From: Coprococcus sp. OM04-5BH
Lineage (GTDB): Bacteria; Bacillota; Clostridia; Lachnospirales; Lachnospiraceae
Reading direction: 5' to 3'
NCBI RefSeq assembly: GCF_003482105.1
Contig: NZ_QULM01000001.1
Coordinates: 434,001 to 498,000, forward strand
Length of the DNA stretch: 64,000 nucleotides
The notes under the pieces were generated by a model that worked only from the letters and a program-made list of their open reading frames with translations, searched no databases and had not been told where the DNA came from. This document shows positions 33,534 through 53,356 of this stretch, one piece after another. Position numbers and translations under genes: made by a program. Position 1 is the stretch's first letter. Every line of letters begins with the position of its first letter.

Positions 33534-34523
33534 ATGAAAGGCTTATTCGGATTTCGTAAGCTGGATATGTATATAGGAAGAGTACATAAGAGAAGGCTGT
33601 GGAGCATTATCGCGTTATTTGCATGTGCAATATATGCTGTGGCAGGAGCTGTGGGCGGAACAACCTTTAAGACCTATGCGGCAGAGCCTAAGGTCATGGT
33701 GACAGACTATAGTATAAGCGGTGACAGTGTAACTGCCAGAGAGAACTTTGAATTGAGTGTGACCATCAAGAATACAGCCACAAAGGCAGTAAGCAATATG
33801 AAGGTATCTGTATACGCTGAAAATGGTGAGTTTATACCAGAGGAGGGTGCCGGAACAGTGTATATCAAGGAGCTTAAGGCTGACAGTGAGGAGACACTGA
33901 CATTTGCCATGAAGACCATAACAGGGCTGGAGGAGAAGACCTACAAGCTTATGGTGAAGAACGAGTATGAGGACAGATACAGCCAGGCGTACACAGTTAC
34001 TGATACTCTGTATATTCCGGTGGTGCTGACTCAGAGAGTGTCAGTTACCGACATGTATGTAAGTGGCGGTGCGGTTCTTGGAGAAGCTATAGAGATTACA
34101 GGAAGCATAAACAACCAGGGCACAGGCAAGCTCTACAATGTGTCTGTTGAGATAGAGAGTGATTATGTGGAGCCGCAGACCAGCTACGTGGGGAATATTG
34201 AACCGGGTAAGAGCGGTTCCGTTGATCTGATCTCAAAGGCGGTAAGATCAACTCCCGGCAACGCAGACGGAAATATTAAGATGAAGGTGTCCTATGAGGA
34301 TCAGCAGGGCAAGGTGAAGTATGAGGAACACCAGATATCCATACAGGTACAGGAGCCGGTGTACAGCAATGTGGAGAAGATAAAGGAGGAGCAGCCTAAG
34401 GTTGACAGCAGGGTAGTGACATGTGCAGCTTTGGGAGCTGTTGTGGTTGTAATCTTTATAGTTATGGGAGTTCGGAAACGTTTGAGGAAGAGGAGGAACC
34501 ATTATGACGAAGGCATAATTTAG
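33534..34523 (+). CDS. Membrane-anchored CARDB/NEW3-like protein
   Basis: 329-aa protein with an N-terminal helix (RLWSIIALFACAIYAVAGAVGG, about residues 20-42), a long extracytoplasmic part of two beta-rich repeats (MVTDYSISGDSVTARENFELSVTIKNT and VSVTDMYVSGGAVLGEAIEITGSINNQG, CARDB-like), and a C-terminal helix (VVTCAALGAVVVVIFIVMGV) with a basic tail. Such proteins are often encoded between MacB-like ATPase and permease genes as periplasm- or surface-side adaptors. The reading frame's last codons (from about 34488) are part of an 83-bp tandem repeat, so the natural C-terminus may have been altered. GGGAGAGGAG precedes ATG 33534. Confidence 0.85.
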   Translation: MKGLFGFRKLDMYIGRVHKRRLWSIIALFACAIYAVAGAVGGTTFKTYAAEPKVMVTDYSISGDSVTARENFELSVTIKNTATKAVSNMKVSVYAENGEFIPEEGAGTVYIKELKADSEETLTFAMKTITGLEEKTYKLMVKNEYEDRYSQAYTVTDTLYIPVVLTQRVSVTDMYVSGGAVLGEAIEITGSINNQGTGKLYNVSVEIESDYVEPQTSYVGNIEPGKSGSVDLISKAVRSTPGNADGNIKMKVSYEDQQGKVKYEEHQISIQVQEPVYSNVEKIKEEQPKVDSRVVTCAALGAVVVVIFIVMGVRKRLRKRRNHYDEGII

Positions 34524-34713
34524 CATGGTTCCGACGAAATGCCGCCGAACGAATGTGAGGGGGCGATACCAAGAGGAGGAACCATTATGACGAAGGCATA
34601 ATTTAGCATGGTTCCGACGAAATGCCGCCGAACGAATGTGAGGGGGCGATACCAAGAGGAGGAACCATTATGACGAAGGCATAATTTAGCATGGTTCCGA
34701 CGAAATGCCGCCG
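34488..34713 (+). repeat. 83-bp tandem repeat, about 2.7 copies
   Basis: Units begin at 34488, 34571 and 34654 with AAGAGGAGGAACCATTATGA and are identical over the compared length; the third breaks off at about 34713. The unit contains an 8-bp outer stem (GGAACCAT/ATGGTTCC), an inner stem closed by a GAA-containing loop (TTATG...CATAA), and ends with GGGGGCGATACCA. The first copy includes the stop codon and last codons of the CARDB-like gene. It belongs to the structured repeat family also seen at 3.74, 34.72, 53.45 and 62.34 kb. Confidence 0.9.
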
Positions 34714-34716
34714 AGA

Positions 34717-34817
34717 GATTGTGCCCCTGCGTTGAAAACGCATATTTGAATGGCACAATCGACTTGCCGCCGAGTGTAAACGAGGGGGCGACACCCTTAA
34801 TGTGAGGGGGCGATACC
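34717..34817 (+). repeat. Structured repeat family, stem-loop copy
   Basis: Outer stem GATTGTGCC (34717-34725) with GGCACAATC (34752-34760), inner stem TGCGTT (34728-34733) with AACGCA (34737-34742) closed by GAA, then ATATTTGAATGG in the 3' linker. Afterwards TTGCCGCCGAG and two blocks of GAGGGGGCGAYACC (ending about 34817). The permease gene begins 36 nt further. Confidence 0.75.
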
Positions 34818-36175: not shown

Positions 36176-36204
36176 TTGACGAAAAAAATGTTTTGAAGTA
36201 TACT
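36176..36204 (+). promoter_or_regulatory. Strong promoter before the giant prepilin gene
   Basis: TTGACG (36176-36181), 17-nt spacer, TATACT (36199-36204), giving a start near 36211 and a 60-nt leader. It follows the permease stop by 42 nt with no terminator in between. Confidence 0.8.
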
Positions 36205-36274: not shown

Positions 36275-39200
36275 ATGGCAGGTAAAAGCAATATAAAAAA
36301 GGAAAAACAGCATAAAAAAACCAAAGATAACAGGGGTTTCACTCTTGTGGAGCTCATAGTTACCCTCGTGGTGCTCATGATACTTCTTTCAGTGTCTGTT
36401 GTAGGAATAATGGCATGGACAGAATGGACAGAGTTTAAGAAGCAGAATGAGTATGCCCAGACCATATTCGTGAATGCACAAAATCAGATGACGGAATACA
36501 GTGTGGGAGGAAAGCTTCCGGTCATAAAGGATGCTTTAAGCAGCAGCGACGGAAGTCTCAGCACAGAGCTTACGGCAGATAAGCTGAGATCCATGAAGGA
36601 TGAAGAGGGCAGTAACTACAATCCCGATACAATCTGGAAGACAGTGGCAACAGACGGTGAGGAATACAAAGGCACCATCTGTTATTTGTCGTGCAATAAA
36701 GGGGATTATAAGATATACATGGCAGATAAGGACAAAGCTGCCATTGACAGAAGACTTCCTGAGCACACACAGCTCCTCTTTGAAATGCTTGAGAATTATG
36801 TATATGATACTTCTATATTGAATGCGGCTATAAGTGTGGAATTTTCTGTTGATGACGGACAGATATTTGCAGTTTCATACAGCAACAGGAATAATAAGTT
36901 TACTTATGACATCAGCGACTCTGGAGGCGCCGTAAGCATATGCGACAGGACACAGAAGGCGAGAAAGGAAAGGATGATCGGCTTCTATGGTGTGGATACC
37001 ATGTCAAAGGCTGCAAATGGCAGAGGGGAGAAGCCGTCTATAACAGATCTGAAACTCAATAACGGGGAGACCCTCAATCTTTCATTTAAACTAAAAAAAT
37101 CGGATACAGCCATTCAGAGACTGAATTATGACGTGGGTCTTTATGACGCAGAAAGCGGCAGGAAGCGGTTGGCATTTGTCCTTGATGGCTCCAAATTAAA
37201 GAATCATGAACATGCTGATGTGGTATCATGCAAAATAGCAAAGTATGATGAGGATGGAAATGAGACATTACTAGGAACCTTCGACATTCTTGCATGGGTG
37301 AACAGTGACAGGACTGTGAACATAGTCCTTGATGGGGCAGATATACAGGCTACGACTCTGCTTTATAAGAAAGATATGGCGAAGCTCGGCACAGTGTCTG
37401 CAGGTGATACGGAATTTGCAGGAACAATGAGCTTTATGAGGTTCGGTCTGGATGCTGACAGCATATATTGTACCGTCCGGGGTTCGGGAGCAGGCTATAA
37501 GACCACAGCCATAAGACAGAGCAACACAGAATGTCCGATGTTTGCTGCTGTTACAAGGGATGAAGAAAGCGGAGATACCGCCATAGATGTAAGCAACGGC
37601 AGGCATCTCTATAACATAAGATATATAGAGGATTACAGAGATCTTGAGTACACAGGTGCCTATACATTCAATATTAAGAAGGATATTGACTGGGAGGCAT
37701 TTGCTGCGGCAGGATATCTGAAGAATTCCGGAGGCTCCGGAGAGGTGGCGGACAGTGAATTCCCATCCTTCAGAAATCTCTTTACTGATGATGTGATAGA
37801 TGGAAATGACCATGTGATAACAGGTCTTACCATCAAAGAAAGCTCCAATGCTTTATACGGAATATACGAGGGACAGGATGTTAAGCCTGCAGGATTATTT
37901 GTGACCAATAACGGCACGATAGAAAGCCTTAAGCTTGATAAGATAAAGGTTGAAGGAACTGACAGCGTAGGTGCCTTCTGCGGTATAAACGCAGGAACTC
38001 TTAAGAAGCTTGAGACGGTTAATACAGATGATGAGAGTCTCATATCCGGTGAGACTAATGTGGCAGGTATAACCGGAAGCCAGAGAACAAAGGCGGGAGA
38101 AGACCGGGACCATATAGTGGTCATAAAGGATCTCACAAACAGGGCATCCGTCCGTGGAAAGACTTATGTGGGCGGTATCGTGGGACAGATATTCCTTGAG
38201 AAGGATGATTACAGCAGAACGGTTATTAAGTACTGCAGAAATTATGGTGCAGTATATTCAGATACAAATGTGAGAAATGTAAGCAGACCTTACGATGCTT
38301 CATACATAGGCGGTATAACGGGATGTGCATATAATGAGACTGAGACACCGGATAATCTTATCATCTACAACTGCATAAGCTCACCACAATACAAAGATAT
38401 CACCACTGCCGGATTTGCCGCAGGGACAGGTATTAAGGGTAAGCTGTACGGCTGTTATGTGGGTGGCATCGTGGGATACAATTATTACGGTGCTGTTGTG
38501 GGCTGTAGTACCGAGGCTGAGGAGGATAAGCCGGGCTTTGTATTTGGATACAAATATGTAGGCGGTATCATTGGTCTGAACCATGGTGTGGCAGGCGGTG
38601 CAGGTGAAAACGGCACAGATGCGGATATAAAGATTAATCTGCCGCATGATGACGAGGATGCAGATGAATTTATTGTGAGATCAGGTGTAAATGAGGCGAA
38701 TGTAGCAGGCTATAGTTATGTGGGCGGTATCGCAGGCAGTAACTCAGAAACAAAGAGCGGAAGTACAACTATAGAGAATGGATTAAGAGTGCCGATCTCA
38801 GCGGTGGATCTTAATAATAAGCTGTCGAGATGGACTAACAGCGGTATTGTAATGGCGTCTGACGGATATACAGGTGGCATAGCAGGATTTAATACAGGCT
38901 GGATATTCGGCTGCGGTCTCCATATGGATGAGACTGAGCAGATAAAGGAAAATGATGTCCTGACAGATATCCATCATGTGGGTGGTATAGCGGGATATAA
39001 CAATGGCGTAATTGGAAACACTGACAGGACAGTGAATACCTCAGGCAGTAACAGCAGCAGAAAGACAGGTACAGGTGCAGCCCATGGTGTGATCACAGTG
39101 ACGGCTTATGTGACCGGCGGCAGTTATGTGGGCGGTATCACAGGCTTTAACGATAAAGATGCCATAATAGAGGACTATGCCCTTGATGGCGGCTATGTGT

Positions 39201-42031
39201 ATGCAGCAGGAGATTTCGCCGGTGGATATGTGGGACTTAATCTTTCCACGGAGTTTATTACCACAGGAAATGACGGAACTGTATCGGGAACCTGGAAGGT
39301 TACGGATGGAGACATCACCGGACGATATTTTGTCGGTGCCATTATGGGAGGCAATATATTAAGTGCAGATACGGATATCAGTACAGCTATAAATTATGGC
39401 AATATGTCAGGGAATGTGGTGGCTGATGCATTTGCCGGGGGCATTGCAGGATACATACTTATTACAGACGGTACATATGGCAACTCTCTTGGCATAAGGG
39501 AGAACATGAGTGAGACAGAGAAGACAGAAACTGTCCAGTGGAAGGTAGAGAGTGCCGTGGATGCAGATGATCTTGCGGCTACCGTAAGAAAGCTTGACAC
39601 CGTTTCATATCCGGGGGCAGCAGAATTTACCGTAAGTGGAGTTTCAGGTACTACAGTAACAGCCTCAGAGGGATTGAAGCTTAAGGGTGGTGTATATCTC
39701 GGCGGTGTGCTGGGATATGTCACAGCAAACACAGAGATACATATTGCAAATGTAACCAATAGGGCGTCTGTGGAAGCGGAAGCCGCAGTTGTGAACAACA
39801 GCGAACAGACAGTAAAGGGAACAGTGAGAAAGGATAAGGATGGCAGGGAATATACTTATTCCTACGCCGGGGGCATCATAGGAAAGGTAAGCAGGAATGT
39901 GACTCTTGAAGCCTGCAGTAATGCAGATGATGTGGAGATCCTTTCAAAGGGAACCTATACAGGTGGACTTGCTGAGATAAATGAAGGCGGGATACTTAAC
40001 TGTACAGTTCCTTCTGTAGATGGAGGAGCGTCAAGCTACATAGGCGGTATATGTGGTCTCAATAAGGCTTCGGGAACCATAAAGGGTACAATTGTGTCAG
40101 ATGCAACTATTAAGGGAACATCCTATGTAGGTGGTATCGTATCGGAGAACTTCGGCAGCCTGGAATTTGATAAGAATGTAGGCAGCATTACTGTTGAAGC
40201 TTCAGGGGATCTTGTTGGAGGCATAGCCGGATACAATGCAGGAAGTATCAAAAACACCGCAAGCTCAGGTAATGTTGAGATAAAGGGAACTATAAAGGGA
40301 AGAAAGAATGTAGGCGGAGTTACAGGCTATATGGAGCTTACCGGTGGTATAAGCGGATTTACCAATTCGGCGGAAATCACGGCGGAAAACACTAATGCCG
40401 GCGGAATAACAGGTACATATAACAATAACAAAACCTCAACATCTGCCATATCAGATTGTATCAACAACGGGCAGATCACCTCTGCCGGTGCAGCTGCCGG
40501 AATTGTGGCGGTTGTAAGCGATAAGCTGATAGCTTTAAAAAATTCAATCAACTTCGGTTATGTGAAGGGCAGTGTCAGCGGCGGTATGGTTGCTCTGTGT
40601 GACAGTGCAGTGTCAGGCTCCATGGACTTTGAGGGCTGTATAAATCATGGAAGGATATACGGCAGCAGCTATTCAGGAGGTATGATAGCTTCCTATAAGG
40701 ATTGCTCCTCTAATATAGAGACAAATATAAATGACTGTGTGAACACAGGTATAGTAAACGGAGCGGGAATAATAGATAATGCTTATGGAAAGGTATATGT
40801 AGAGCTGTGCAGAAACTATGGTGTGTCCTGTAAGGCAGGAATTGCAGGGAAAGAAGTTACAGGTATCAGGTCATGCTTTGACGCCGGCAGCTCGGGAGTG
40901 CCTACGGGTAAGGCGTCTTCTTACTCAGGCAACAACTTTTTTGTGACCGCATTGGATACCTCGGCAGTTGAGACTAACGGAGCAAGGCTTCTCCGTGTGG
41001 AGCAGTTTTATGATTCTGCCTCAGCCCGGAGATACAATTTATATAACGGAACAAATAAAACCAATATGGTGAATCTTAAGTTTAACGCCATATCAGATGA
41101 ATTCAGGTGGTATGACAGCAAAACAGATATACCTAAGGCGATACTTAATACCAGGTCTGCTACTATGAATGAGTACCGTATGAACACCTACCTGGAATGG
41201 GATAAGGGTATAGTAACTTATCTGAGATCGGAGCCGGAGGATATGACACTTCCTGCACCGGAGGTAACACTTCGTATGATAGAAGGTGGATATCTGGTGG
41301 CTGTACTTGAGAATGCTTATGACTATGCCGATATAGAAAGCTGTAGTATAAATGTGAAGCTTGGTACAGGTGAGGAACTTATAATAGATGGCAAGACGGG
41401 GTACAGTACAGCTCTTGTGAAGTGCGGCACCACAGGAAATGTCACCATAAGTTCATATGCCTATGCCGACGGATACTCACAGTCTGATACAGTTACCAGG
41501 GAAGCTCTGCTTGTGGCAGCAGGTGATATGGACAAGGTATTTACATCAGAGAATATAGGCTTTGAAGGAGGTAATAAGGACTTCTGCTACAAAGTCAGAA
41601 ATACAAATAACAGTGACAGCGGAATGTATGTGACTTCAATTCTGTCAGTTTATGACGAGGAGCTTGGATTTGAGGTTGGATACAGTGCTGGTGCTGTAGG
41701 GATTGCAGGACATAGTGCCGCATATTCCTACATAAGAAATCTTTCTGAAGATATAGACGAAGATGCCGGTATTACAATAGCCTCATATCTTTCATCAGGT
41801 GCTGGAGGCTATACCTCTTATGAGTATGTGGTTGCAGATGAGCTGACGGCAGATGAGGTGAAGCGGCTTAAGGATGCCAACTGTTACAGAGCTGTGGGCG
41901 GAAACATAAAGAAGCAGACCAGGGAAGTGTATTCGGCAGCTTCCGAAAGTATGGTTCCGGGATACATGGTTATTGTAAATGATGATGGAACATATAGGGT
42001 TGTATATAATGTCTGGAGGGCCGGCTCATGA
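36275..42031 (+). CDS. Giant prepilin-like GLUG-repeat surface protein
   Basis: 1918-aa protein. A class III (type IV prepilin) signal lies near the N-terminus: basic leader, cleavage site after G21 before F22-TLVELIV with Glu at mature position +5, and a hydrophobic helix to about residue 48. After a head domain (about 50-500) come about 20 repeats of GLUG type, each near V/I-G-G-I-x-G-Y/F-N (VGGIVGYNYYGAVVG, VGGIAGYNNGVIG, VGGIAGYNAGSI, AGGITGTYNNNKT), spaced 40-90 residues up to about 1500, which suggests a beta-helical stalk. A C-terminal domain follows (about 1540-1918). Ordinary type IV pilins have 130-250 aa, so this is an unusually large pilin-like adhesin. The stop overlaps the next gene's start (ATGA). 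No strong ribosome site; GGTGAT precedes the ATG. Confidence 0.9.
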   Translation: MAGKSNIKKEKQHKKTKDNRGFTLVELIVTLVVLMILLSVSVVGIMAWTEWTEFKKQNEYAQTIFVNAQNQMTEYSVGGKLPVIKDALSSSDGSLSTELTADKLRSMKDEEGSNYNPDTIWKTVATDGEEYKGTICYLSCNKGDYKIYMADKDKAAIDRRLPEHTQLLFEMLENYVYDTSILNAAISVEFSVDDGQIFAVSYSNRNNKFTYDISDSGGAVSICDRTQKARKERMIGFYGVDTMSKAANGRGEKPSITDLKLNNGETLNLSFKLKKSDTAIQRLNYDVGLYDAESGRKRLAFVLDGSKLKNHEHADVVSCKIAKYDEDGNETLLGTFDILAWVNSDRTVNIVLDGADIQATTLLYKKDMAKLGTVSAGDTEFAGTMSFMRFGLDADSIYCTVRGSGAGYKTTAIRQSNTECPMFAAVTRDEESGDTAIDVSNGRHLYNIRYIEDYRDLEYTGAYTFNIKKDIDWEAFAAAGYLKNSGGSGEVADSEFPSFRNLFTDDVIDGNDHVITGLTIKESSNALYGIYEGQDVKPAGLFVTNNGTIESLKLDKIKVEGTDSVGAFCGINAGTLKKLETVNTDDESLISGETNVAGITGSQRTKAGEDRDHIVVIKDLTNRASVRGKTYVGGIVGQIFLEKDDYSRTVIKYCRNYGAVYSDTNVRNVSRPYDASYIGGITGCAYNETETPDNLIIYNCISSPQYKDITTAGFAAGTGIKGKLYGCYVGGIVGYNYYGAVVGCSTEAEEDKPGFVFGYKYVGGIIGLNHGVAGGAGENGTDADIKINLPHDDEDADEFIVRSGVNEANVAGYSYVGGIAGSNSETKSGSTTIENGLRVPISAVDLNNKLSRWTNSGIVMASDGYTGGIAGFNTGWIFGCGLHMDETEQIKENDVLTDIHHVGGIAGYNNGVIGNTDRTVNTSGSNSSRKTGTGAAHGVITVTAYVTGGSYVGGITGFNDKDAIIEDYALDGGYVYAAGDFAGGYVGLNLSTEFITTGNDGTVSGTWKVTDGDITGRYFVGAIMGGNILSADTDISTAINYGNMSGNVVADAFAGGIAGYILITDGTYGNSLGIRENMSETEKTETVQWKVESAVDADDLAATVRKLDTVSYPGAAEFTVSGVSGTTVTASEGLKLKGGVYLGGVLGYVTANTEIHIANVTNRASVEAEAAVVNNSEQTVKGTVRKDKDGREYTYSYAGGIIGKVSRNVTLEACSNADDVEILSKGTYTGGLAEINEGGILNCTVPSVDGGASSYIGGICGLNKASGTIKGTIVSDATIKGTSYVGGIVSENFGSLEFDKNVGSITVEASGDLVGGIAGYNAGSIKNTASSGNVEIKGTIKGRKNVGGVTGYMELTGGISGFTNSAEITAENTNAGGITGTYNNNKTSTSAISDCINNGQITSAGAAAGIVAVVSDKLIALKNSINFGYVKGSVSGGMVALCDSAVSGSMDFEGCINHGRIYGSSYSGGMIASYKDCSSNIETNINDCVNTGIVNGAGIIDNAYGKVYVELCRNYGVSCKAGIAGKEVTGIRSCFDAGSSGVPTGKASSYSGNNFFVTALDTSAVETNGARLLRVEQFYDSASARRYNLYNGTNKTNMVNLKFNAISDEFRWYDSKTDIPKAILNTRSATMNEYRMNTYLEWDKGIVTYLRSEPEDMTLPAPEVTLRMIEGGYLVAVLENAYDYADIESCSINVKLGTGEELIIDGKTGYSTALVKCGTTGNVTISSYAYADGYSQSDTVTREALLVAAGDMDKVFTSENIGFEGGNKDFCYKVRNTNNSDSGMYVTSILSVYDEELGFEVGYSAGAVGIAGHSAAYSYIRNLSEDIDEDAGITIASYLSSGAGGYTSYEYVVADELTADEVKRLKDANCYRAVGGNIKKQTREVYSAASESMVPGYMVIVNDDGTYRVVYNVWRAGS

Positions 42032-42735
42032 GATTAAAGAAGGACAATAAGGGCGCAGCCATGATAGTTGCACTGGTGGTGATGACGGTGCTTATGGTGT
42101 TCTGTCTCTCGCTGCTTCTGGTGGTGTATTCACTATATACCTCCACCTTGAAGAAAAATTCGGCACTCCAATGTAAGGAGGCCTGTAAGACCATGAGCTT
42201 TGAGCTTCAATCGGAGCTTACGGAGCCGGAATATGCGGATTATGAAAGTCAGCGTGCTGCCAAAGAAGGTGTAACAGATACAGGTGGGGATTCCCTCTGG
42301 TTCTACATACGTTACAACATATGGCAGGACTCGTGGCCTTACTACAGCAGTACCGAGAAGGGGCATGGAAAGGATAAGGCTTACAGATATTTCACCATTG
42401 CCCCGTCGGAGGATGTGGCAGGAATGGTTGAGGACATAAAGGTGTGCATTTACTGGGAGAAAGGTGATGGAGATCCTGATGTCTCCGGACAGGAGAATGA
42501 TGGTATTAATATCCCGGGTCAGAGGATAGACACTATTCTTCATGTTATAGTTACCTGCAGCAAGAACAAACAGTCCTATTCCATAGAGACGGAGTATGCT
42601 CTTATGGCAGGAGAATATGCAGACATTACAGACAAAACAGAAGAGGACATCATGTTAAATAATGGAGTAAATCCCTACAATAACAGCATATATAAATTCG
42701 AAAAGTGGCAGTGGGTATTTTCCGAAAGAGAATAA
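42028..42735 (+). CDS. Pilus accessory protein, PilX-like
   Basis: 235-aa protein. N-terminus KKDNKGAAMIVALVVMTVLMVFCLSLLLVVYSLYTS is an anchor helix preceded by a basic segment; it lacks the Glu+5 of true pilins and resembles the PilX/PulK-type N-termini (MIVALVVMTVL). The soluble part has aromatic and acidic segments (SLWFYIRYNIWQDSWPYYSS). Its ATG shares ATGA with the stop of the giant pilin gene, so they are translationally coupled. Role as a minor pilus component is inferred from locus and topology. Confidence 0.8.
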   Translation: MRLKKDNKGAAMIVALVVMTVLMVFCLSLLLVVYSLYTSTLKKNSALQCKEACKTMSFELQSELTEPEYADYESQRAAKEGVTDTGGDSLWFYIRYNIWQDSWPYYSSTEKGHGKDKAYRYFTIAPSEDVAGMVEDIKVCIYWEKGDGDPDVSGQENDGINIPGQRIDTILHVIVTCSKNKQSYSIETEYALMAGEYADITDKTEEDIMLNNGVNPYNNSIYKFEKWQWVFSERE

Positions 42736-42784: not shown

Positions 42785-43210
42785 ATGATCGTGAATTTGC
42801 AGAGAAAAAAGGTTGTGATGAGATTGTCGAAAAATAAAAAAATAAATTTGAGAGCTCCCGGCAGACCATTTGATAACAGGGGAACCACTATAGTGGAGAT
42901 TATAATTGCATTTACAATGGTGGGAATTGTAATGACGGCGTTTACCGGAGTGATAATGTTGTCTTATAATTTCCTTGCGAAGTCAGAGCAGATGGTAGAG
43001 GCACAGGAAGTCTTTAGTGAACAGTTTTATACCGGACAGATCACTGCAGCGAACAGAGATGATATAAACTACACCATGACTGCGGATGATGACAATAGTA
43101 CCAGGATAGGGCTTGGACGGGCAGATACAAGGATATTCCACAACGATGAAATGGATATAAATGTCATCAGGTTTACGGATCAGGTACCGTCGGCTACAGT
43201 TGGTGACTGA
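42785..43210 (+). CDS. Minor type IV prepilin
   Basis: 141-aa prepilin: DNRGTTIVEIIIAFTMVGIVMTAFTGVIML. The cleavage glycine is about residue 33, and mature position +5 is Glu (T-T-I-V-E). The leader is longer than that of pilA. Short head domain with MTADDDNSTRIGLGRADTR. ATG 42785 has AGGA 5 nt upstream; the in-frame ATG 42821 with AAGG-TTGTG upstream is an alternative that gives a normal-length leader. One of several minor pilins in the cluster. Confidence 0.82.
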   Translation: MIVNLQRKKVVMRLSKNKKINLRAPGRPFDNRGTTIVEIIIAFTMVGIVMTAFTGVIMLSYNFLAKSEQMVEAQEVFSEQFYTGQITAANRDDINYTMTADDDNSTRIGLGRADTRIFHNDEMDINVIRFTDQVPSATVGD

Positions 43211-43251: not shown

Positions 43252-43905
43252 ATGGGATATAGAATTGGCAGAAAGCAAAGACAACTGAATAAGGACACCG
43301 GCTTTACTTTGGTGGAATTGATTGTGTGTTTTGCACTTCTTGGTATATTTATGGTGTGTGCCATGCTTATCATTTCGTCGGTCATGGGCATATACTACCA
43401 TGCCAAGGGCGTTGACACCGGAAGGCAGGTGGCAGACATGGTGGCTACCAAGGTGGTTGGCGAGATTGAGGGAGCCGTTACCGGTGCAGATGTGAATGAT
43501 ACCGAGGTGAGTGGTATTGGAAGTACTGTGGATAGCCGTATCACCGGAGGCGCCATGGAATATATGGCAATAGGAGATGATGGCTCATATATTGATTTCT
43601 ATGACAGGACAGGAAGCCATGTGAAGATAAGTGTTGTGGACGATTATCTTGATATTTACTACTATCCTGTGGTGGTTGATGGGGGCACCGGGACGAAGCC
43701 CGGCAGAGGTGTTGACTGGACCTTTGACCCTAAGACCTATCAGGGCTACAAGGTAAGCAGCATGACATTCACCCATGTGGGCGGCAATATCATCAGGCTT
43801 GAGCTTGTTATTCATAGTGACAAGTACGGTGATTACACCGGCACCCAGTACATAGAGTGTTATAATTTCACGGACGCTGATGTTTCGGGAATTGTCCGGA
43901 AGTAA
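43252..43905 (+). CDS. Minor type IV prepilin
   Basis: 217-aa prepilin with KDTGFTLVELIVCFALLGIFMVCAMLIISS: cleavage after G17, then F-T-L-V-E with Glu +5. Head domain about 170 residues, including GGAMEYMAIGDDGSYIDFYD and GYKVSSMTFTHVGGNIIRLELVIHSD. Length fits a PilV/FimU-type minor pilin. Possible start ATG 43252 with GGAG upstream. Confidence 0.88.
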   Translation: MGYRIGRKQRQLNKDTGFTLVELIVCFALLGIFMVCAMLIISSVMGIYYHAKGVDTGRQVADMVATKVVGEIEGAVTGADVNDTEVSGIGSTVDSRITGGAMEYMAIGDDGSYIDFYDRTGSHVKISVVDDYLDIYYYPVVVDGGTGTKPGRGVDWTFDPKTYQGYKVSSMTFTHVGGNIIRLELVIHSDKYGDYTGTQYIECYNFTDADVSGIVRK

Positions 43906-44499: not shown

Positions 44500-45300
44500 A
44501 TGAACTGGCTTACAATTTCAATTTATTTATCAAAGGGACTTATATATCTGGTGTTTTTCCTGATAGGTATCACTGTATTTTCATTTGCAAATGTTGTGAT
44601 ATATCGTCTTCCGGAGAAGAAGGGTTTCACGAAGGGCTCATCAATGTGCCGTTCCTGCGGACACAAGCTGGCAGTGAAGGATCTTATACCGATATTCTCG
44701 TGGATCAGACTTAAAGGTAAATGCAGATATTGCGGGGAGAAGATATCCGTAAGATATCCGTTGGTTGAGTTATTCGGCGGTATATGTGCAGTGGGACTTA
44801 CAGCATATTACGGAATAACATTAAAGGCGCTGACCATATTCCTGTTATTTACGGTATTTACCATTATAACTCTCATAGATTACGATACCATGGAGATACC
44901 ACCGGTGCTGAATGTTGCAGTATTGATCCTTGGCATCATATCAATATGGACCGTAGGGGGCGTCAGTATCCTTGATCGTATAATAGGAATGTTCTGTATA
45001 AGCCTTCCGTTGTTCCTGATAGTGCTCATTATCCCTGAGGGCTTCGGCGGTGGAGACATCAAGCTTATGTTCGCGGCAGGCTTCTTCCTTGGCTGGAAGA
45101 TGACAGTTATGGGCTTCTTCATAGGTCTGGTTGCCGGTGGAATATACGGAGTGATCCTTATGGCAAGAAGAAAGAAGGGCAAGAAGGATCATTTCGCATT
45201 CGGTCCTTTCCTGTGTGCCGGCATGGCCATATCTATATTTGTGGGAACACAGTTACTGGACAAATACATAGATTTTATCAAGGCGGCATTCTACCAGTAA
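44500..45300 (+). CDS. pilD: Type IV prepilin peptidase (A24)
   Basis: 266-aa inner-membrane aspartic protease that cleaves prepilins and N-methylates the new N-terminus. The cytoplasmic N-terminal segment has the zinc tetrad CRSCGHKL and CRYCGEKISVRYPLVE. Catalytic Asp residues lie in LIDYDTMEIP and FGGGDIKLMFAAG (the GxGD motif). Eight predicted helices. AGGAG precedes ATG 44500. All pilin genes in this locus should be its substrates, including the giant GLUG protein. Confidence 0.95.
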   Translation: MNWLTISIYLSKGLIYLVFFLIGITVFSFANVVIYRLPEKKGFTKGSSMCRSCGHKLAVKDLIPIFSWIRLKGKCRYCGEKISVRYPLVELFGGICAVGLTAYYGITLKALTIFLLFTVFTIITLIDYDTMEIPPVLNVAVLILGIISIWTVGGVSILDRIIGMFCISLPLFLIVLIIPEGFGGGDIKLMFAAGFFLGWKMTVMGFFIGLVAGGIYGVILMARRKKGKKDHFAFGPFLCAGMAISIFVGTQLLDKYIDFIKAAFYQ

Positions 45301-45397: not shown

Positions 45398-46600
45398 TTG
45401 GACAGCTACAGATATAAGGCAAGAAACGCCGGCGGACGAGCCTTTAAGGGTGTCATGCAGGCCGTTGATGAGAACGATCTTCACGAAAAACTGAAAAAGG
45501 ATGAGCTGTTCCTTGTAAGTGCGGAGCTGATAAAGGGAAAGACTTCCTCGAGAAAGCTGAAATCCGACAAGGTTGCGGAATTCGCAAGGAATATAGGTGA
45601 GCTGGTTGCCTCCGGCGTGTCATTGGTGAGAGCTCTTAAGATCATATCAGAGGATGAATCCATATCACCTAAGGAAAGGACTATATATGCAAATGTTTTA
45701 AGGCTGGTGCGTTCAGGTATACCGTTGTCCGATGCGCTTATTGAGCAGGGGGGCGTGTTCCCAACCTTATTTGTCAACATGATAAAAAGCTCGGAATCCA
45801 GTGGTAATCTGGATCGGGTGGCACTGCAGATGGCTGATTATTACGAGAAGGATTATAAGCTCAGCCAGAAGCTGTCCAGTGCGTTTACCTACCCTAAGAT
45901 ACTGTGCGTGTTGATAGTTCTGGTGCTCATAATCATAATGGGTTTTGTTATACCTCAGTTTGAGTCATTATTTGCACAGATGGAGACACTCCCGGCAGCC
46001 ACCAGGATATTGCTGGCAATAAGCGGTTTTGTGTCAAAGAAGTGGTACATACTTATATTTGCAGTGATAGTCGGTGTTATGGCAATAAGGCTTATCGTAG
46101 TCATACCGGCGGTGGCCTATGTGCTTCATAAGCTAAAGCTTAAGCTGCCCGTGTTCGGCAAATTAAACAAGGTCATATATACGGCGAGATTTGCCAGAAC
46201 CCTGTCGTCTCTGTATTCTGCAGGTATCCCTATAGTTACGGCACTGGGAATAGCCAGGGAGACCATCGGCAACAGGTATATAGAGAAGCAGTTCGACAAT
46301 GTTATCGCTATGGTAAGGGCAGGTGCCAACCTGAGTGACGCCATAAACAGTGTTGACGGTTTCGTGAAGAAGCTTACTTCATCAATACTTGTGGGTGAGG
46401 AGACCGGTTCCTTAGATACCATGCTTAAGTCAACGGCGGACCAGATGTCCTATGATTCTGAGATAGCTATGAACAAGCTGGTTGCAATGGTGGAGCCTGC
46501 CATGATAGTAGTTATGGCAGTTACAGTTGGATTTATCATGATAGCTATTATCCAGCCGATCTACGGTTCATACCAGGCAATAGCCAATAGTTATCAGTAA
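45398..46600 (+). CDS. pilC: Type IV pilus inner-membrane platform protein
   Basis: 400-aa GspF/PilC family platform protein. Two T2SSF domains: first GELVASGVSLVRALKII (about residues 65-185), second FARTLSSLYSAGIPIVTALGIA and GEETGSLDTMLKSTA (about 260-390). Three transmembrane regions (LCVLIVLVLIIIMGFVIP; WYILIFAVIVGVMAIRLIVVIPAVAYVL; MIVVMAVTVGFIMIAIIQPIYG). Couples motor ATPases to pilin assembly. Starts with TTG 45398, preceded by AAAGGAG; the length is normal. Confidence 0.94.
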   Translation: MDSYRYKARNAGGRAFKGVMQAVDENDLHEKLKKDELFLVSAELIKGKTSSRKLKSDKVAEFARNIGELVASGVSLVRALKIISEDESISPKERTIYANVLRLVRSGIPLSDALIEQGGVFPTLFVNMIKSSESSGNLDRVALQMADYYEKDYKLSQKLSSAFTYPKILCVLIVLVLIIIMGFVIPQFESLFAQMETLPAATRILLAISGFVSKKWYILIFAVIVGVMAIRLIVVIPAVAYVLHKLKLKLPVFGKLNKVIYTARFARTLSSLYSAGIPIVTALGIARETIGNRYIEKQFDNVIAMVRAGANLSDAINSVDGFVKKLTSSILVGEETGSLDTMLKSTADQMSYDSEIAMNKLVAMVEPAMIVVMAVTVGFIMIAIIQPIYGSYQAIANSYQ

Positions 46601-46615
46601 GGCGGTGAGAGACAA

Positions 46616-48112
46616 ATGAGTACAGTAGTATATTTATCAAATCAGAGTATACAGATTATAACCGGTACAAGGGGAAGCAAGAAGATAACAATAAATGACT
46701 GCTGCATCCTGGACGCACCGGAGGGCAGTATCATAAACGGTACGGTGACGGATATTAATTCTCTCGCTGACTGCCTTAAGGAATTCTGGCAGGCCAATTC
46801 TTTAAATGCAAATGATGTGTATCTGGTAGTAAACAGTAACAAGATAATAAGTAAGAACCTTGATGTTCCTGCAATGTCAGAGAGAAAGGAGCGGGATTTC
46901 ATCAGAAGGGAATTCGCCGATATAGAAGCAGGAACAGAGCGAGTGTACGGAAGCATAAGCTTCAAGCCGGACAGCAAGATGACCATTGTTCCAATGAACA
47001 AGCTGTATGTGGAGAGTGCCACCAAGGAATTCGTGGAGACATATATTGAACTGTTCAAGCTGGCAGGTATAGGCCTTAAGGGAATGTATTCCGGCGAGGG
47101 TGCACTGATATCCCTGACGGCATCAACTATAGCCACCACAAGAAAGACGTTTGTCATGGAGGTCGCCGACAACATGAACCTTACCACCATACTCTGGGTA
47201 AATGGCAGGTTCTATTACTATAACAGTACCAGATGCTTCAGCGTTCCGGGAACCGAGAGCTATGCCCTTGATGTGGGCAAATCCGTCAGCCAGATCATCC
47301 AGTTCATGCAGGCAAATCAGATCGAGTATGAGCTGGAGGAGATAGTTCTTGCAGGTATAAGCTCTGGAAATGTTCCATTATACAGAAATGCCATTGAGAG
47401 TCATGGAATAAATACGCCGGTGTCGGTATTTGCAGATACAAAGAGGATAAAATGCAACGGAAATTATGACATCCAGAGGACCATACAGGCAGTGTCGGGA
47501 TTGGGCTGTGTCCAGAAGAGACAGAACTTCCTTGTATATTATTCAGGCATGCACAAGGCAAGGAAAGAAACTGACGCAGGAACCATGAAGAAGATTGGTG
47601 CAGTTGCTGCGGTTACGGCAGTTATGCTGCTTGGCTTTGGAGGGACATTTGCATATAAGGTGATGAGAAATAACAAGCTCACGGAGCTTAAGGATTATAA
47701 TGAGTCACCGGCGGTCATAAGTCAGGCCAGCATGTACGATGCACTCCTTGCCAGAAATACATATATCTCCGGACAGTATTATGCCATCAACGAGATCTCG
47801 GACAATCTGGATACTTATCCATACTGTAGTGCAGAGGTAAGGAACATCATAGGCACATGTGCAAAGGGATATGCCGATGTTGATATTGAGTCCTTTAATT
47901 CCGATACAGGAGTTGTAACCATGGTTGCAAAGGCTGAAAATGTTGACCTTATAAACCAGTTCATTAAGCGTCTTACGGATGAAGATATATTTAACAACAT
48001 AGATTATACCGGATATGCTTTTGAAGAGGACACGGAACTCTGGAACATACATGTTATGTGCATACTTTCGGAATCCGCAGGAAAGCAGGGAGGTGAAGCA
48101 GATGCAGACTAA
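46616..48112 (+). CDS. pilM: PilM-PilN fusion-like pilus alignment protein
   Basis: 498-aa protein. The first 320 residues have the actin-like PilM fold pattern (STVVYLSNQSIQIITG, FKLAGIGLKGMYSGEG, GKSVSQIIQFMQ, IVLAGISSGN). A transmembrane helix follows (about 328-346, IGAVAAVTAVMLLGFGGTF), then a roughly 150-residue extracytoplasmic part reminiscent of PilN. In most systems PilM and PilN are separate proteins, so this is a natural fusion of cytoplasmic and membrane alignment subunits. Overlaps pilO by 11 nt. PilM function fits locus; the PilN assignment is by topology only. Confidence 0.85.
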   Translation: MSTVVYLSNQSIQIITGTRGSKKITINDCCILDAPEGSIINGTVTDINSLADCLKEFWQANSLNANDVYLVVNSNKIISKNLDVPAMSERKERDFIRREFADIEAGTERVYGSISFKPDSKMTIVPMNKLYVESATKEFVETYIELFKLAGIGLKGMYSGEGALISLTASTIATTRKTFVMEVADNMNLTTILWVNGRFYYYNSTRCFSVPGTESYALDVGKSVSQIIQFMQANQIEYELEEIVLAGISSGNVPLYRNAIESHGINTPVSVFADTKRIKCNGNYDIQRTIQAVSGLGCVQKRQNFLVYYSGMHKARKETDAGTMKKIGAVAAVTAVMLLGFGGTFAYKVMRNNKLTELKDYNESPAVISQASMYDALLARNTYISGQYYAINEISDNLDTYPYCSAEVRNIIGTCAKGYADVDIESFNSDTGVVTMVAKAENVDLINQFIKRLTDEDIFNNIDYTGYAFEEDTELWNIHVMCILSESAGKQGGEADAD

Positions 48113-48911
48113 GATGACAGAAAGAGACAAGAAACTGCTATTTGCCCTGGTAATCATAGTGATAGTGTTTGTTATCGGATATCTCGGCATATATCCGCTG
48201 GTCAAAAGTGTCAGGGAAATAAACAAGGAAATAGAGGAACAGGAGGCTCTTCAGTCTGAAAATGAGATTAAGCTTACTAATCTGACTATTATTCAGGTGG
48301 ATAATGAAAAGATGGAAGAGGACATAATCGAGAAGCGTAAGGATTTCTATCCGGTGATGGCAGCGTCTGACATAGACAAGCTGCTGACAGGAAAGGCTCT
48401 TTCCTACAATCTTTATTCCTATGATCTTGATATAGATGTAAATGACACGGTGGTGAGTCTGGTGCCTTACCAGTATTCTGATAGGGGTGAAGATGATGAC
48501 ACCGATGCGTCTGAAGATGACCAGGAAGATGCAGTGGATGCGGTAGATTATTTGGACAATACATATTCAAGCGGTTCAAATTCAAGCGGATCAAGCTCAG
48601 GCGGATCAACGGATACGGGAGATGCTTCGTCAGACTCGGATGGTACAACTACGGATATGTCAGCGGTTGGAATATATGTGGCATATGTGAATATGCGTCT
48701 CGGAGGAAACAGGGCAGATCTTGAGAAATTTCTTGATGATATGGTAGCCAGCGGAGAGAAGGTACGAGTTGTATCATATTCCTGGACAGAGGGAAGACAG
48801 CTTGATTATAACAATGACGGAACCTACAATCTTGTTACCGAGAAGGTACTTGATATCAGCCTAGAGCTGTATATGAGCGATCCCGGGGATGAGGTAGAGG
48901 GAACTGAGTAG
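48102..48911 (+). CDS. pilO: PilO-like pilus alignment protein
   Basis: 269-aa protein with a cytoplasmic N-terminus, one helix (LLFALVIIVIVFVIGYLGIYPLVKSV, about residues 11-34), a coiled-coil (INKEIEEQEALQSENEIKLTNL) and a periplasm-side domain as in PilO/GspM. A Ser/Gly/Asp-rich linker (about 150-185, SSGSNSSGSSSGGSTDTGD) separates two parts of that domain; such linkers are not standard in PilO. GGGAGG lies 8 nt before ATG 48102 within the pilM end. PilO family is assigned by position and topology. Confidence 0.8.
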   Translation: MQTKMTERDKKLLFALVIIVIVFVIGYLGIYPLVKSVREINKEIEEQEALQSENEIKLTNLTIIQVDNEKMEEDIIEKRKDFYPVMAASDIDKLLTGKALSYNLYSYDLDIDVNDTVVSLVPYQYSDRGEDDDTDASEDDQEDAVDAVDYLDNTYSSGSNSSGSSSGGSTDTGDASSDSDGTTTDMSAVGIYVAYVNMRLGGNRADLEKFLDDMVASGEKVRVVSYSWTEGRQLDYNNDGTYNLVTEKVLDISLELYMSDPGDEVEGTE

Positions 48912-49028
48912 GGAAGATATTTGCAGAAAATAGGTTGATAAGTCAAGAAATAAAATGGCTTGTGGCGGAATGTGGATTGTAAGATCACGCATTTGCAGAA
49001 ATTGTGTGAGAAGGGCGAAGATTTTGAT

Positions 49029-50708
49029 ATGGAGATGAACCGGAATATACGAATAGGCGAAGTTCTTGTGGAATTCGGCTATGTAAATGATTATCAGATA
49101 GCCCAGGCGATGGAGTACAAGCAGGCGAACAAGGGCGTTCGTCTCGGCGATGCACTCATACAGCTTGGATATATTACAGAAAAACAAATGCTTGAGGCTC
49201 TTGCCAAGAGACTTGGATATGGCGTGGCAAATGTCTCAGATCTGTCCATAGATGTTGACGCTGTGGAAATGGTTCCTGAGGCGCTGGCAGAGAAATATTG
49301 CATGCTTGGATATGGGGTAAAGGATGGAAGATATCTTATATTGGTAAATGATCCAATGAACTTCTATGGAATTGAAGATATCAGGCAGATCGTGGGAATG
49401 GATCTTCAGATATCCCTTTGCGAGGAGGCGCCTCTTGCCTCGGCGATCCAGTATTATTATTCTGAGGTGTCGGCGAGAAAGGCAGCGGTTAAGGCGTCCC
49501 AGAACAGTATCGAAGAGGAAAACATAGTAGATATAAATGTTGAGGATGGCGACGATGATACACCTATCATAAACCTTCTTAACAGTATTATTCTGAGAGC
49601 CTATAATTCAGGGGTTTCAGATATACACATTGAACCCTTTGAGCACCAGACCACTGTGCGAATGAGAGTTGATGGCGTCATTATGGAGTTCATGACCATA
49701 CAGAAGAATATCCACAATTCCCTTATTGCCAGAGTTAAGATCCTTGCGGATCTGGATATTGCCGAGCGAAGGATACCCCAGGATGGACATTTCAGAACAA
49801 GTGTAGACGGAAATAATCTTAATATAAGAGTTTCGGTGGTGCCTACGGTATTTGGCGAGAAGGCAGTTCTGCGACTTCTTGCGGGAACAGGAAAGATTGA
49901 TTATCCGGCGTCCTTTGGCATGAACGAGAAATCATTTGCACTGGTAAGCGAAATGTTAAATTCTCCAAGTGGAATTATCTACATAACAGGCCCCACAGGC
50001 TCAGGAAAATCCACAACTCTTTATATGATGCTTGAGTCCCTGTCAAAGAGGCAGGTGAACATATCAACCATCGAGGATCCTGTGGAGAAAAACCTTCCGA
50101 AGCTCAGCCAGATACAGGTAAATAATACCGCAGGACTTACATTTGAAGTAGGGCTTAGGGCATTGCTCAGGCAGGATCCGGACATAATAATGGTTGGTGA
50201 GACGAGAGATGCCGAAACAGCGGCTATCTCCGTAAGAGCCGCTATCACCGGACATCTGGTTCTGTCAACCCTTCACACAAATGATGCAGCTTCATCCATC
50301 GCCCGTCTTGAGGATATGGGCGTTGAGCCGTACATGATCGCAAGCTCGCTGGTGGGTATCGTGGCACAGCGACTGGTAAGAAAGGTATGTCCTTTCTGCG
50401 CGGTATCTGAGGAAATGACGTCAAAAGAAGAATACATAGCAGGAAGGAAGCTCCCGCATGTTATGCACGCCAAGGGCTGCAGGCAGTGCAATGAGTCCGG
50501 ATACAAGGGACGAATATCAATTCATGAGATCCTTCCTATAGACAAGCAGATAAAGAAAATGGTAACAAATGGTGCCAGTGTTGAGGAAATAAAGACTTAT
50601 GCCATAGATAACCTTGGCATGAAGACCTTGAAGCAGAGTGCCCTTGAGCTGGTAGAGCAGGGTGTTACTACTGTGGAGGAAATGGCGAAGGCAGCATATT
50701 ATGATTAG
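49029..50708 (+). CDS. pilB: Type IV pilus extension ATPase
   Basis: 559-aa hexameric motor that powers pilus assembly. N-terminal T2SSE_N domain (RIGEVLVEFGYVNDYQIAQAM), then the ATPase core with Walker A GPTGSGKSTTLY (about residues 321-332), Asp box DIHIEPFEHQTTVRMRVDG, Walker B DPDIIMVGETRDAETA, and the zinc tetrad CPFCAVSEE and CRQCNESGY. Length and order are typical. Two in-frame ATGs, 49029 and 49035; AGAAGGG is 13 nt before the first. A longer start at 48960 lacks support. No HDOD or MshEN extras visible beyond the N domain. Confidence 0.95.
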   Translation: MEMNRNIRIGEVLVEFGYVNDYQIAQAMEYKQANKGVRLGDALIQLGYITEKQMLEALAKRLGYGVANVSDLSIDVDAVEMVPEALAEKYCMLGYGVKDGRYLILVNDPMNFYGIEDIRQIVGMDLQISLCEEAPLASAIQYYYSEVSARKAAVKASQNSIEEENIVDINVEDGDDDTPIINLLNSIILRAYNSGVSDIHIEPFEHQTTVRMRVDGVIMEFMTIQKNIHNSLIARVKILADLDIAERRIPQDGHFRTSVDGNNLNIRVSVVPTVFGEKAVLRLLAGTGKIDYPASFGMNEKSFALVSEMLNSPSGIIYITGPTGSGKSTTLYMMLESLSKRQVNISTIEDPVEKNLPKLSQIQVNNTAGLTFEVGLRALLRQDPDIIMVGETRDAETAAISVRAAITGHLVLSTLHTNDAASSIARLEDMGVEPYMIASSLVGIVAQRLVRKVCPFCAVSEEMTSKEEYIAGRKLPHVMHAKGCRQCNESGYKGRISIHEILPIDKQIKKMVTNGASVEEIKTYAIDNLGMKTLKQSALELVEQGVTTVEEMAKAAYYD

Positions 50709-51370: not shown

Positions 51371-52417
51371 ATGAAGATTGATGGACTTATTTTAGACGCC
51401 AGGGCAAATAAATGCTCGGACATACATATATCTGTGGGTATGCCTCTTATGTACAGGGTAAATGGACGGCTTATGGAAATTCCTGTTCCTTATTCGGACG
51501 AAGACATTGAGGACATGCTGGTGGATATGATGGATGATAAGCAGCTTGCTGACATTAAAGCCGGCAAGGATGTGGATTTTGCTGTCCGCACGTCAGACGG
51601 CAACAGGCAGAGGGTAAATATATTCAGGCAGCAGGGCAGGCTTGCGGCAACTATAAGATTGTTAAACAGCACTATACCTGAATTGTCCATGCTGGGACTT
51701 CCGCCGGTTCTGAATACTCTGGCTGAGAAGCCGAGAGGACTGATACTGGTTACAGGGCCTACAGGATCAGGTAAGTCAACAACCCTGGCTTCAATGATAG
51801 ATCATATCAATTCCACAAGACCGGATCACATCATCACCATTGAGGATCCTATCGAGTATACCTATGAGAAGAAAATGGCACTTATCCACCAGAGAGAAGT
51901 GGGCAGGGATGTGGAGAGCTTCGCTGCTGCATTAAGGAGTGCACTTCGTGAGGATCCCGACATAATCCTGGTGGGAGAAATGCGTGACTACGAGACCATA
52001 TCGGCAGCCCTCACGGCGGCAGAAACCGGACATCTTGTAATGTCTACCCTCCATACCACAGGTGCAGCCCAGACCATAGACAGAATTATCGACGCCTGTC
52101 CCGGATATATACAGAACCAGATCAGAACCCAGCTTGCCAGCGTGTTAAATGGTGTGGTTACCCAGTGCCTTATGCCAAATGCAACAGGTACCGGCAGAGT
52201 TCCGGGAACCGAGATCCTTGTGGGAACAGACGCTGTGTCAAACCTTATAAGAGAGAACAAATGTCACCAGCTTTCAACCGCAATGCAGGCAGGTGCCAGA
52301 GTGGGTATGCATACCCTGAATACAGATCTGTGTCGTCTTGTAAGTGCAGGAAAGATCACCATGGATTCCGCAAGGAAGTATACAAATGATCTTAAGGATC
52401 TGGAGCAGTTTTTCTAA
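51371..52417 (+). CDS. pilT: Type IV pilus retraction ATPase
   Basis: 348-aa retraction motor. Opening KCSDIHISVGMPLMYRVNGR is typical PilT N-domain. Walker A GPTGSGKSTTLASM, Asp-box/His-box region, Walker B REDPDIILVGEMRDYETI, and AAETGHLVMSTLHTTGAAQTIDRIID are intact. No zinc tetrad, which separates it from PilB. GGAGG lies 8 nt before ATG. Presence suggests dynamic (twitching or DNA-uptake) pili. The AT-rich stretch 52418-52741 after it holds only weak hairpins (ATACTC/GAGTAT at 52437-52459) and no gene. Confidence 0.95.
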   Translation: MKIDGLILDARANKCSDIHISVGMPLMYRVNGRLMEIPVPYSDEDIEDMLVDMMDDKQLADIKAGKDVDFAVRTSDGNRQRVNIFRQQGRLAATIRLLNSTIPELSMLGLPPVLNTLAEKPRGLILVTGPTGSGKSTTLASMIDHINSTRPDHIITIEDPIEYTYEKKMALIHQREVGRDVESFAAALRSALREDPDIILVGEMRDYETISAALTAAETGHLVMSTLHTTGAAQTIDRIIDACPGYIQNQIRTQLASVLNGVVTQCLMPNATGTGRVPGTEILVGTDAVSNLIRENKCHQLSTAMQAGARVGMHTLNTDLCRLVSAGKITMDSARKYTNDLKDLEQFF

Positions 52418-52909: not shown

Positions 52910-53356
52910 ATGAAGAGAATGAGGAAGGATAACAAAGGTTTTACACTTGTTGAGTTGATAGTTGTACTTGTAATTTTAGCAATTCTTGCAGCAATTCTTG
53001 TACCTGCATTACTTGGTTACATCGACAAGGCAAAAGAAAAGCAGATCGTATTAAATGCAAAGAGCTGCTACACAGCTGCGCAGGCCAAGTATTCAGAGCT
53101 TTATGCTAAGGATGCTACAACAGTTTCTCAGACGGATATGGACGAGATCTGGGCAATGGCAGATGTTAAGGATCTTGATACACTTGAAGTAGGAACAGCA
53201 AAAGCATTTGCATCAAAGGATCATGACTCATACACAGTAAGCTACATACATTACAAGGATAAGGATGGAGAGATCTGGTTATCAGATGGTTCATGGACGA
53301 CAACAGAGCCGACAACAAAGCCAGCTAACGTACAGGCAATTACAAAGAGTAAATAA
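52910..53356 (+). CDS. pilA: Major type IV pilin
   Basis: 148-aa prepilin with a short basic leader (MKRMRKDNKG), cleavage after G10, then FTLVELIVVLVILAILAAILVPALLGY with Glu +5. Head domain about 110 residues, ending EPTTKPANVQAITKSK, a Thr/Lys-rich tail. Short size and high-quality AGGAGG ribosome site, own promoter and own terminator indicate the major pilin, expressed separately from the assembly operon. Good candidate for regulation by the leader upstream. Confidence 0.93.
   Translation: MKRMRKDNKGFTLVELIVVLVILAILAAILVPALLGYIDKAKEKQIVLNAKSCYTAAQAKYSELYAKDATTVSQTDMDEIWAMADVKDLDTLEVGTAKAFASKDHDSYTVSYIHYKDKDGEIWLSDGSWTTTEPTTKPANVQAITKSK

Follow-up and report, generated by a model that had tools for sequence, protein, structure and literature searches.

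A giant modular prepilin with a predicted beta-helix rod at the head of a type IV pilus operon of Coprococcus

In a 64,000-nucleotide stretch of the genome of the gut bacterium Coprococcus sp. OM04-5BH (contig NZ_QULM01000001.1, positions 434,001 to 498,000; hereafter the window), the first gene of a complete type IV pilus (T4P) cluster encodes a prepilin of 1918 residues, some ten times longer than is normal for a pilus subunit. We read this protein, with a probability of roughly 0.6, as a giant modular minor pilin that carries a beta-helix rod and a variable end at the pilus tip. It had been singled out from the sequence alone (the original prediction) as a pilus-linked adhesin with a prepilin signal and about 20 GLUG repeats, and its core is borne out by a match to PF07963 and by the pil genes downstream (Table 1): the pilus operon does encode a prepilin whose secreted module is very large.

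The proposed frame and the G21-F22 signal with Glu+5 agree with a frame check and a Pfam scan, in which PF07963 (N_methyl) matched residues 17-40 (E 7.4e-7; 28.9 bits, where 21.2 is the cut-off). Cleavage is expected at G21/F22TLVE, Glu+5 of the mature protein is E26, and G21-F22-T23, E26 and V29 are invariant in alignments A4 (23 rows) and A5 (19 rows). The TGA stop (42029-42031) overlaps the ATG of the next gene at 42028 (ATGA), consistent with the translational coupling that had been suggested. A loose pattern, [VITAL]GG[..][..][GSAE], occurs 21 times in the protein, 20 of them within residues 632-1375, whereas 500 residue shuffles gave 0.97 on average and never more than 5; because two of the 20 (773 and 1356) lie oddly near others, we count 18-20 genuine VGGIxGxN-like units. 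For the GLUG family itself (PF07581; we take IPR011493 to be the same) the window protein has no Pfam match at E ≤ 1. A promoter-like site (36176-36204) lies within the 140-base gap 5' of the gene; such sites are not enriched in the region (40 against a shuffle mean of 42.9), and the Rfam matches of the window include no c-di-GMP riboswitch 5' of the gene.

Structure prediction points to a pilin onto which other domains have been grafted. Model 1 (residues 1-760; mean predicted local distance difference test score (pLDDT) 85.2, predicted template modelling score 0.66) places a helix at residues 24-78, strands at 135-221 and a sheet reaching to about residue 240, i.e. the predicted counterpart of the ~50-residue helix alpha1 and beta-sheet head of type IV pilins. 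After residue ~242 it predicts domains foreign to such pilins (Ig-like, beta-helix), as in a modular pilin. Profile A2 matches PilE1 of Streptococcus sanguinis (E 2e-8). Model 2 (residues 741-1918) extends the predicted beta-helix as far as residue ~1473; pLDDT is 70-97 over most of it but lower in places, for example at 776-801. A beta-helix had been proposed for residues 500-1550 and is predicted over about 435-1473, where the rod appears to share its fold with the GLUG-type beta-helix of IgA1 proteases.

The boundary of the graft coincides with the ends of natural short forms. At five loci an ordinary pilin fills the giant's slot directly 5' of the PilX-like gene (L020, L021 and L023 with 213, 237 and 200 residues; L096 and L098 with 213 and 198). 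These pilins are 27-37% identical to the start of the window giant, on which their alignments end at about 241 (L020), 243 (L023), about 253-254 (L021 and L098) and about 216 (L096). The predicted fold explains this boundary, since the pilin sheet ends at about residue 240 and the Ig-like sandwich follows from 253. On a PilC tree the short forms fall in an unresolved fork compatible with either order, short or giant first, and cluster no more tightly than in many shuffles (125 of 500).

The cluster occupies 36.3-53.4 kb in the order giant, PilX-like, PilV/ComGE-like, PilW-like, small conserved gene, PilD, PilC, PilM, PilO-like, PilB, PilT and PilA, the last two of which we take from their sequences to be what these names say. 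The giant is followed by encoded T4P machinery (PilD, PilC, PilM, PilB), as expected of a type IV pilin, and stands next to a PilX-like gene, as had been predicted. At its N-terminus PilB has an MshEN domain of the c-di-GMP-binding kind (PF05157; NF053729 above cut-off), and c-di-GMP may therefore influence pilus extension. Among loci L001-L085 we read 43 giants in their gene context, 39 of them with room downstream, and 35 of these have a minor-pilin gene within 3 kb on the 3' side; it is a PilX-like gene, overlapping or within 150 nucleotides, in 33, and a PilV-like gene in L079 and L082. The rule fails at L009 (first copy), L013, L068 and L080; these counts are not independent, as some loci are the same place reached twice (e.g. 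L002/L073, L009/L080). Glu5 is missing from all 39 PilX-like proteins (L034 is doubtful) and present in 45 of 47 giant-slot proteins. One of the two lacking it is the first copy of L009, cut at its 5' end; the other we infer to be L054, likewise 5'-cut and without the motif.

This combination recalls the PilHIJK tip complex, which a review describes as capped by a Glu5-lacking subunit (PMC10191384). S. sanguinis replaces PilHIJK with PilABC, which includes two modular pilins (PMC10191384). The analogy with tip adhesin complexes drawn in the original prediction is sound, because the PilX-like neighbour belongs to the Glu5-lacking type reported as the tip cap.

A search with residues 10-480 recovered at least 48 homologues of 1116-3340 amino acids (median 2276.5), a lower bound because scoring was confined to the 7990 candidates with the most shared words; 40 of the 48 carry PF07963 in precomputed domains. 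The "exceptional size" claimed for the window protein thus holds against ordinary pilins and not within its own family. A scan of genome contigs with the window giant alone as query gave no match (45 pattern stretches). Alignment A1 as query gave at least 65 loci, with Lachnospiraceae in 41 of the 65 titles among the matches listed; a giant is present at only some of these loci, and in the weakest rows the match is confined to the prepilin motif. In a sample of 397 genomes from the family of Eubacterium sp. MSJ-21 (G001, the source of locus L006), the N-terminal profile A4 matched 35 at E ≤ 1e-20, and the best matching frame was at least 1400 amino acids long in 31 of them (longest 7664). The remaining four are a frame running off its contig (G319, 634 amino acids), two short forms (G158, G178) and one frame with an internal stop (G400, 340 amino acids). 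These counts are lower bounds, since the giant of G231 was missed at that threshold.

These data also settle whether a pilin gene and a surface-protein gene were fused by misassembly. Only the unusual size speaks for this reading; the original prediction had named it as a possible refutation. Full-length homologues from other sources are 98, 90 and 88% identical in the N-terminal part used as query (748 member sequences stand behind the first), and the same architecture in independent genomes, with at least 48 homologues and with frames of 1400 amino acids or more in 31 of 35 genomes, refutes it; we regard misassembly as practically excluded. A viral origin was likewise rejected: a tblastn search of viral contigs found no relative (E ≤ 1e-3, 34 pattern stretches), and PHROGs matches were weak and N-terminal, except one mid-protein match at E 0.26.

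The giant module travels with the pilus machinery. PilM matched 97 of the 397 genomes at E ≤ 1e-15 and 40 strongly at E ≤ 1e-40, a cut placed by eye at a gap in the list (the same 397 genomes as far as listed). Thirty of the 35 giant-module genomes are among these 40 (Fisher p 2e-31, uncorrected for kinship). Ten strong-PilM genomes had no A4 match: seven (G025, G039, G052, G155, G259, G348, G367) have no prepilins but short ones within the 11.6-19.5 kb examined, G231 holds the missed giant, the contig of G334 ends near the slot, and G220 is fragmentary.

Conservation declines along the protein. In 28 relatives with 24-43% overall identity to the window giant, identity is 41-66% in the alpha1 region (residues 22-80) but only 0-31% over residues 1661-1918, a part that often has low coverage and is unaligned in two rows; in two close relatives it falls from 88-93% to 82-83% toward the C-terminus. 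A search with residues 1600-1918 returned only three near-identical proteins. Conservation at the base and divergence toward the outer end would suit an exposed tip that faces a ligand, but also a simple lack of constraint. A rod better conserved than the C-terminus would also suit a scaffold that spaces the wall or primes the pilus, guiding the growing fibre through peptidoglycan and binding nothing in particular, and a relative of 7662 amino acids that ends in NlpC/P60 and cell-wall hydrolase domains hints at work on the wall. Short-slot genomes, however, retain the machinery genes without a rod, and the cargo varies, as with PF00754 in homologues P0006 and P0007; we consider the scaffold improbable.

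With PF07581, the whole protein of relative L006 scores above the cut-off and L001 just below it. Of the 31 genomes whose best frame is 1400 amino acids or longer, 24 have PF07581 above its cut-off somewhere and 19 within the giant pilin's own frame (family match and giant being paired by contig and frame length); G001 showed none in this genome-level search, despite the L006 protein passing the cut-off. In precomputed Pfam domains, PF07963 and PF07581 occur together in five of the 48 homologues (P0009, P0010, P0011, P0019, P0029). The joint search that the original prediction had suggested thus finds prepilin signal and GLUG joined in many other genomes, and the prediction does not fail on the ground it had named, that no other genome would join them.

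A pilus-borne enzyme, either an M26 (IgA1-type) peptidase or a polysaccharide-active beta-helix enzyme, would be a further reading. The active site of IgA1 protease is an HEMTH motif with a downstream Glu (PMC7695701), whereas the part matched by the giant is the N-terminal beta-helix. The window protein has no M26 Pfam match and lacks the HExxH zinc site with its downstream Glu; HExxH occurs in only two of 98 giants, at unrelated positions. (A genome search for PF07580 gave 0 of 31, but its control matched nowhere, so that this figure is uninformative alone.) M26 identity is therefore not supported, and an enzyme of either kind seems very improbable to us.

What sequence and prediction show is the prepilin signal, the pilin module, the point of grafting, the rod, the operon and the joint occurrence with T4P machinery; cleavage, incorporation, tip position, exposure of the rod and binding are inferences. 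If our preferred reading is correct, the giant would enter the membrane through its prepilin signal and would be cleaved and methylated by the neighbouring PilD. PilC, PilM, PilO and PilB would then assemble it through helix alpha1 into the pilus-initiating minor-pilin complex, where it would be laid first together with the Glu5-lacking PilX-like cap and the PilV-like and PilW-like pilins. The Ig-like linker and the rigid beta-helix rod (~1000 residues; perhaps 15-20 nm, as estimated from helix geometry) would hold the variable C-terminal end beyond the tip, where it might bind a host, food or neighbour surface before PilT-driven retraction pulls the cell in. No C-terminal membrane helix was found in 98 giant sequences including the window protein, nor is there a conserved sortase motif among them; the window protein has no LPxTG-type motif, and P0013 (a record labelled partial) is the sole giant with a sortase motif near its end. 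Alpha1 is thus the only visible anchor. This also suits a reading in which the prepilin signal serves only as a membrane anchor and the giant, an adhesin crossing the wall, remains in the envelope without ever joining a pilus: the rod alone could span a monoderm wall, and tandem giant copies stand together in L009/L080. The retention of Glu5 and of a whole pilin module, the position inside a minor-pilin operon and the short pilins that fill the same slot argue against it, and we hold membrane retention to be unlikely, though deserving of more weight than the scaffold.

Several observations weigh against the modular tip pilin that we favour. The mean pLDDT of model 2 is only 61.8, because the C-terminal part is poorly modelled, and the supposed binding end, the C-terminal 445 residues, has no confident fold (pLDDT under 50). 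Neither model had a PDB match at E ≤ 0.001 by Foldseek alone (closest: 7uvk for model 1, E 1.5e-3); the beta-helix claim draws instead on the VIA second look and a profile match. The H-type (FimU/GspH/ComGD) place is assigned to the giant by elimination: curated H-type families lie far below cut-off (TIGR01708 (GspH) E 0.022, NF007800 E 2.3e-6), and ComGF and ComGE models match it about as well as NF007800, the N-terminus driving these matches. Short forms in two of the 35 giant-module genomes (G158, G178) indicate that the cargo is not essential to the pilus system, and five of the 35 lack a strong PilM match. We also know of no tested precedent for folding or extruding a 1900-residue subunit through peptidoglycan.

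That the architecture is wholly undescribed, for which the original prediction had seen in it a strong candidate, is not supported. Modular pilins, and among them an IPR012902-IPR011493 pairing, appear in PMC8179133 (2021), where the pairing is read as a predicted M26 peptidase and the most extreme multi-domain pilin of the main text, by domain number, has 860 amino acids. Those paired pilins probably share the architecture of the window giant, in which we see a non-catalytic beta-helix rather than a peptidase. The closest parallels are PilB (vWA) and PilC (lectin) of S. sanguinis, whose adhesive modules have been modelled at the tip (PMC8179133, PMC9934059): minor pilins of a monoderm T4P with an N-terminal pilin module and a non-pilin module grafted C-terminally, which is a single globular domain there and a ~1000-residue beta-helix with Ig-like and C-terminal parts in the 1918-residue giant. 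The PilY1/PilC adhesins of diderm type IVa pili, with PilHIJK, likewise place a large effector at a minor-pilin tip complex, the position proposed here, but as a separate non-pilin protein (PMC10191384), whereas the giant's effector is fused to the minor pilin. PF05567 (PilY1) has no Pfam match in the window protein; its 0 of 31 in giant-bearing genomes is uninformative alone, as the control matched nowhere. A beta-solenoid also occurs in the minor pilin ComZ of Thermus thermophilus, where it interrupts the pilin beta-sheet (PMC8179133), whereas that of the giant follows a complete pilin module. From the metallo-IgA1 proteases (S. pneumoniae, G. haemolysans) and 3n6z (Bacteroides ovatus) the giant differs by lacking the M26 match and HExxH, and by a prepilin signal and pilin module in place of their N-terminal parts. 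The literature searched, mostly at title and abstract level, names the architecture only in PMC8179133 and contains no account of its size class, the rod reading, its regular occurrence within pilus operons in Lachnospiraceae and their relatives, or short forms in the same slot.

To our knowledge, little is established on how commensal Clostridia hold mucus, fibre or each other. If our reading is true, their pili carry a built-in giant tip adhesin, relatives with short and giant slots allow one machine to be compared in its natural states, bare and loaded with cargo, and the peptidase predicted in print for this architecture is better understood as a structural rod. A mechanical question arises as well, namely the export, folding and peptidoglycan passage of a subunit of 1900 to 7700 residues as the first piece of a filament. 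A bolder proposal, which we put forward tentatively, is that a clade of gut and rumen Clostridia routinely builds tip-complex pilins of more than 1400 and up to about 7700 residues, perhaps among the largest known, each with a rigid beta-helix spear tens of nanometres long and exchangeable ends that adhere, bind carbohydrate or, in one genome, hydrolyse peptidoglycan, as a spear and winch for fibre, mucus and neighbours.

Table 1 Parts of the giant prepilin and genes of the pilus cluster in the window
Feature	Position	Strand	Basis or remark
Giant modular prepilin, 1918 amino acids	36275..42031	+	Intact single open frame, ATG start
Leader peptide, residues 1-21	36275..36337	+	Expected cleavage after G21; PF07963 at 17-40
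Pilin module, residues 22-242	36338..37000	+	Predicted helix 24-78 and beta-sheet; equals whole short pilin of other genomes
Ig-like beta-sandwich, residues 253-423	37031..37543	+	Model 1
GLUG-type beta-helix rod, residues about 435-1473	37577..40693	+	Models 1 and 2
C-terminal region, residues 1474-1918	40694..42028	+	No confident fold; least conserved part
PilX/GspK-type minor pilin without Glu5	42028..42735	+	ATGA-coupled; no curated family (NCBIfam) match
PilV/ComGE (I-type) minor pilin	42785..43210	+	NF041013 E 1e-4, below cut-off
PilW-like minor pilin, J-type by position	43252..43905	+	PF07963 E 7.7e-6; position conserved
Small gene near pilW, pilD, pilC	44019-44459		Conserved in relatives (about 140-190 amino acids)
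PilD prepilin peptidase	44500..45300	+	PF06750 E 3.7e-31, PF01478 E 6.3e-16
PilC platform protein	45398..46600	+	PF00482 E 7.3e-53
PilM	46616..48112	+	TIGR01175 E 4.1e-9, below cut-off
PilN/PilO-like protein	48015..48911	+	PF04612 E 0.0055, below cut-off; position
PilB extension ATPase with MshEN domain	48960..50708	+	PF00437 E 2.3e-125, PF05157 E 5.4e-10
PilT-type retraction ATPase	51371..52417	+	Sequence; presumed name
Probable major pilin PilA	52910..53356	+	GFTLVELIVV motif seen; short size, position

Other large prepilins accompany the family. The 7662-residue prepilin (L066/L067, G185 contig C19), with C-terminal NLPC_P60 and Hydrolase_2 (cell wall hydrolase) domains, lies near pilT and pilB, and L009 and L080 (G190) hold two giant prepilins in tandem of about 3200 residues each. 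A second large prepilin (858-2082 residues) lies upstream of the giant in L007, L011, L012, L014, L016, L017, L018 and L019, with one small pilin in between in L011 and L014; the two that were scanned (L019, L011) contain DUF285 repeats in six stretches, and L011 also BspA-type LRR_5. Prepilin-like frames of 2090-3002 residues, weakly similar to the giant, stand beside T4P genes in L024, L025, L026, L027, L035, L036, L042 and L053; of the two scanned, L042 shows five Flg_new (Listeria-Bacteroides) stretches and L024 only N_methyl. Enlarged PilV- and PilW-like minor pilins (310-629 residues, against 141 and 217 in the window) occur in L085, L002, L004, L008 and L072, so further cargo may ride on them.

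In the window itself, the small conserved gene contains an in-frame TAA (44262-44264) beyond which similarity continues in the same frame, either a real interruption or a sequence error. Two tandem GA-cis RNAs (RF02987; 92.5 and 72.1 bits; 34488-34574 and 34713-34799) lie around the end of a CARDB-domain gene, 5' of a MacB/FtsX-type permease gene.
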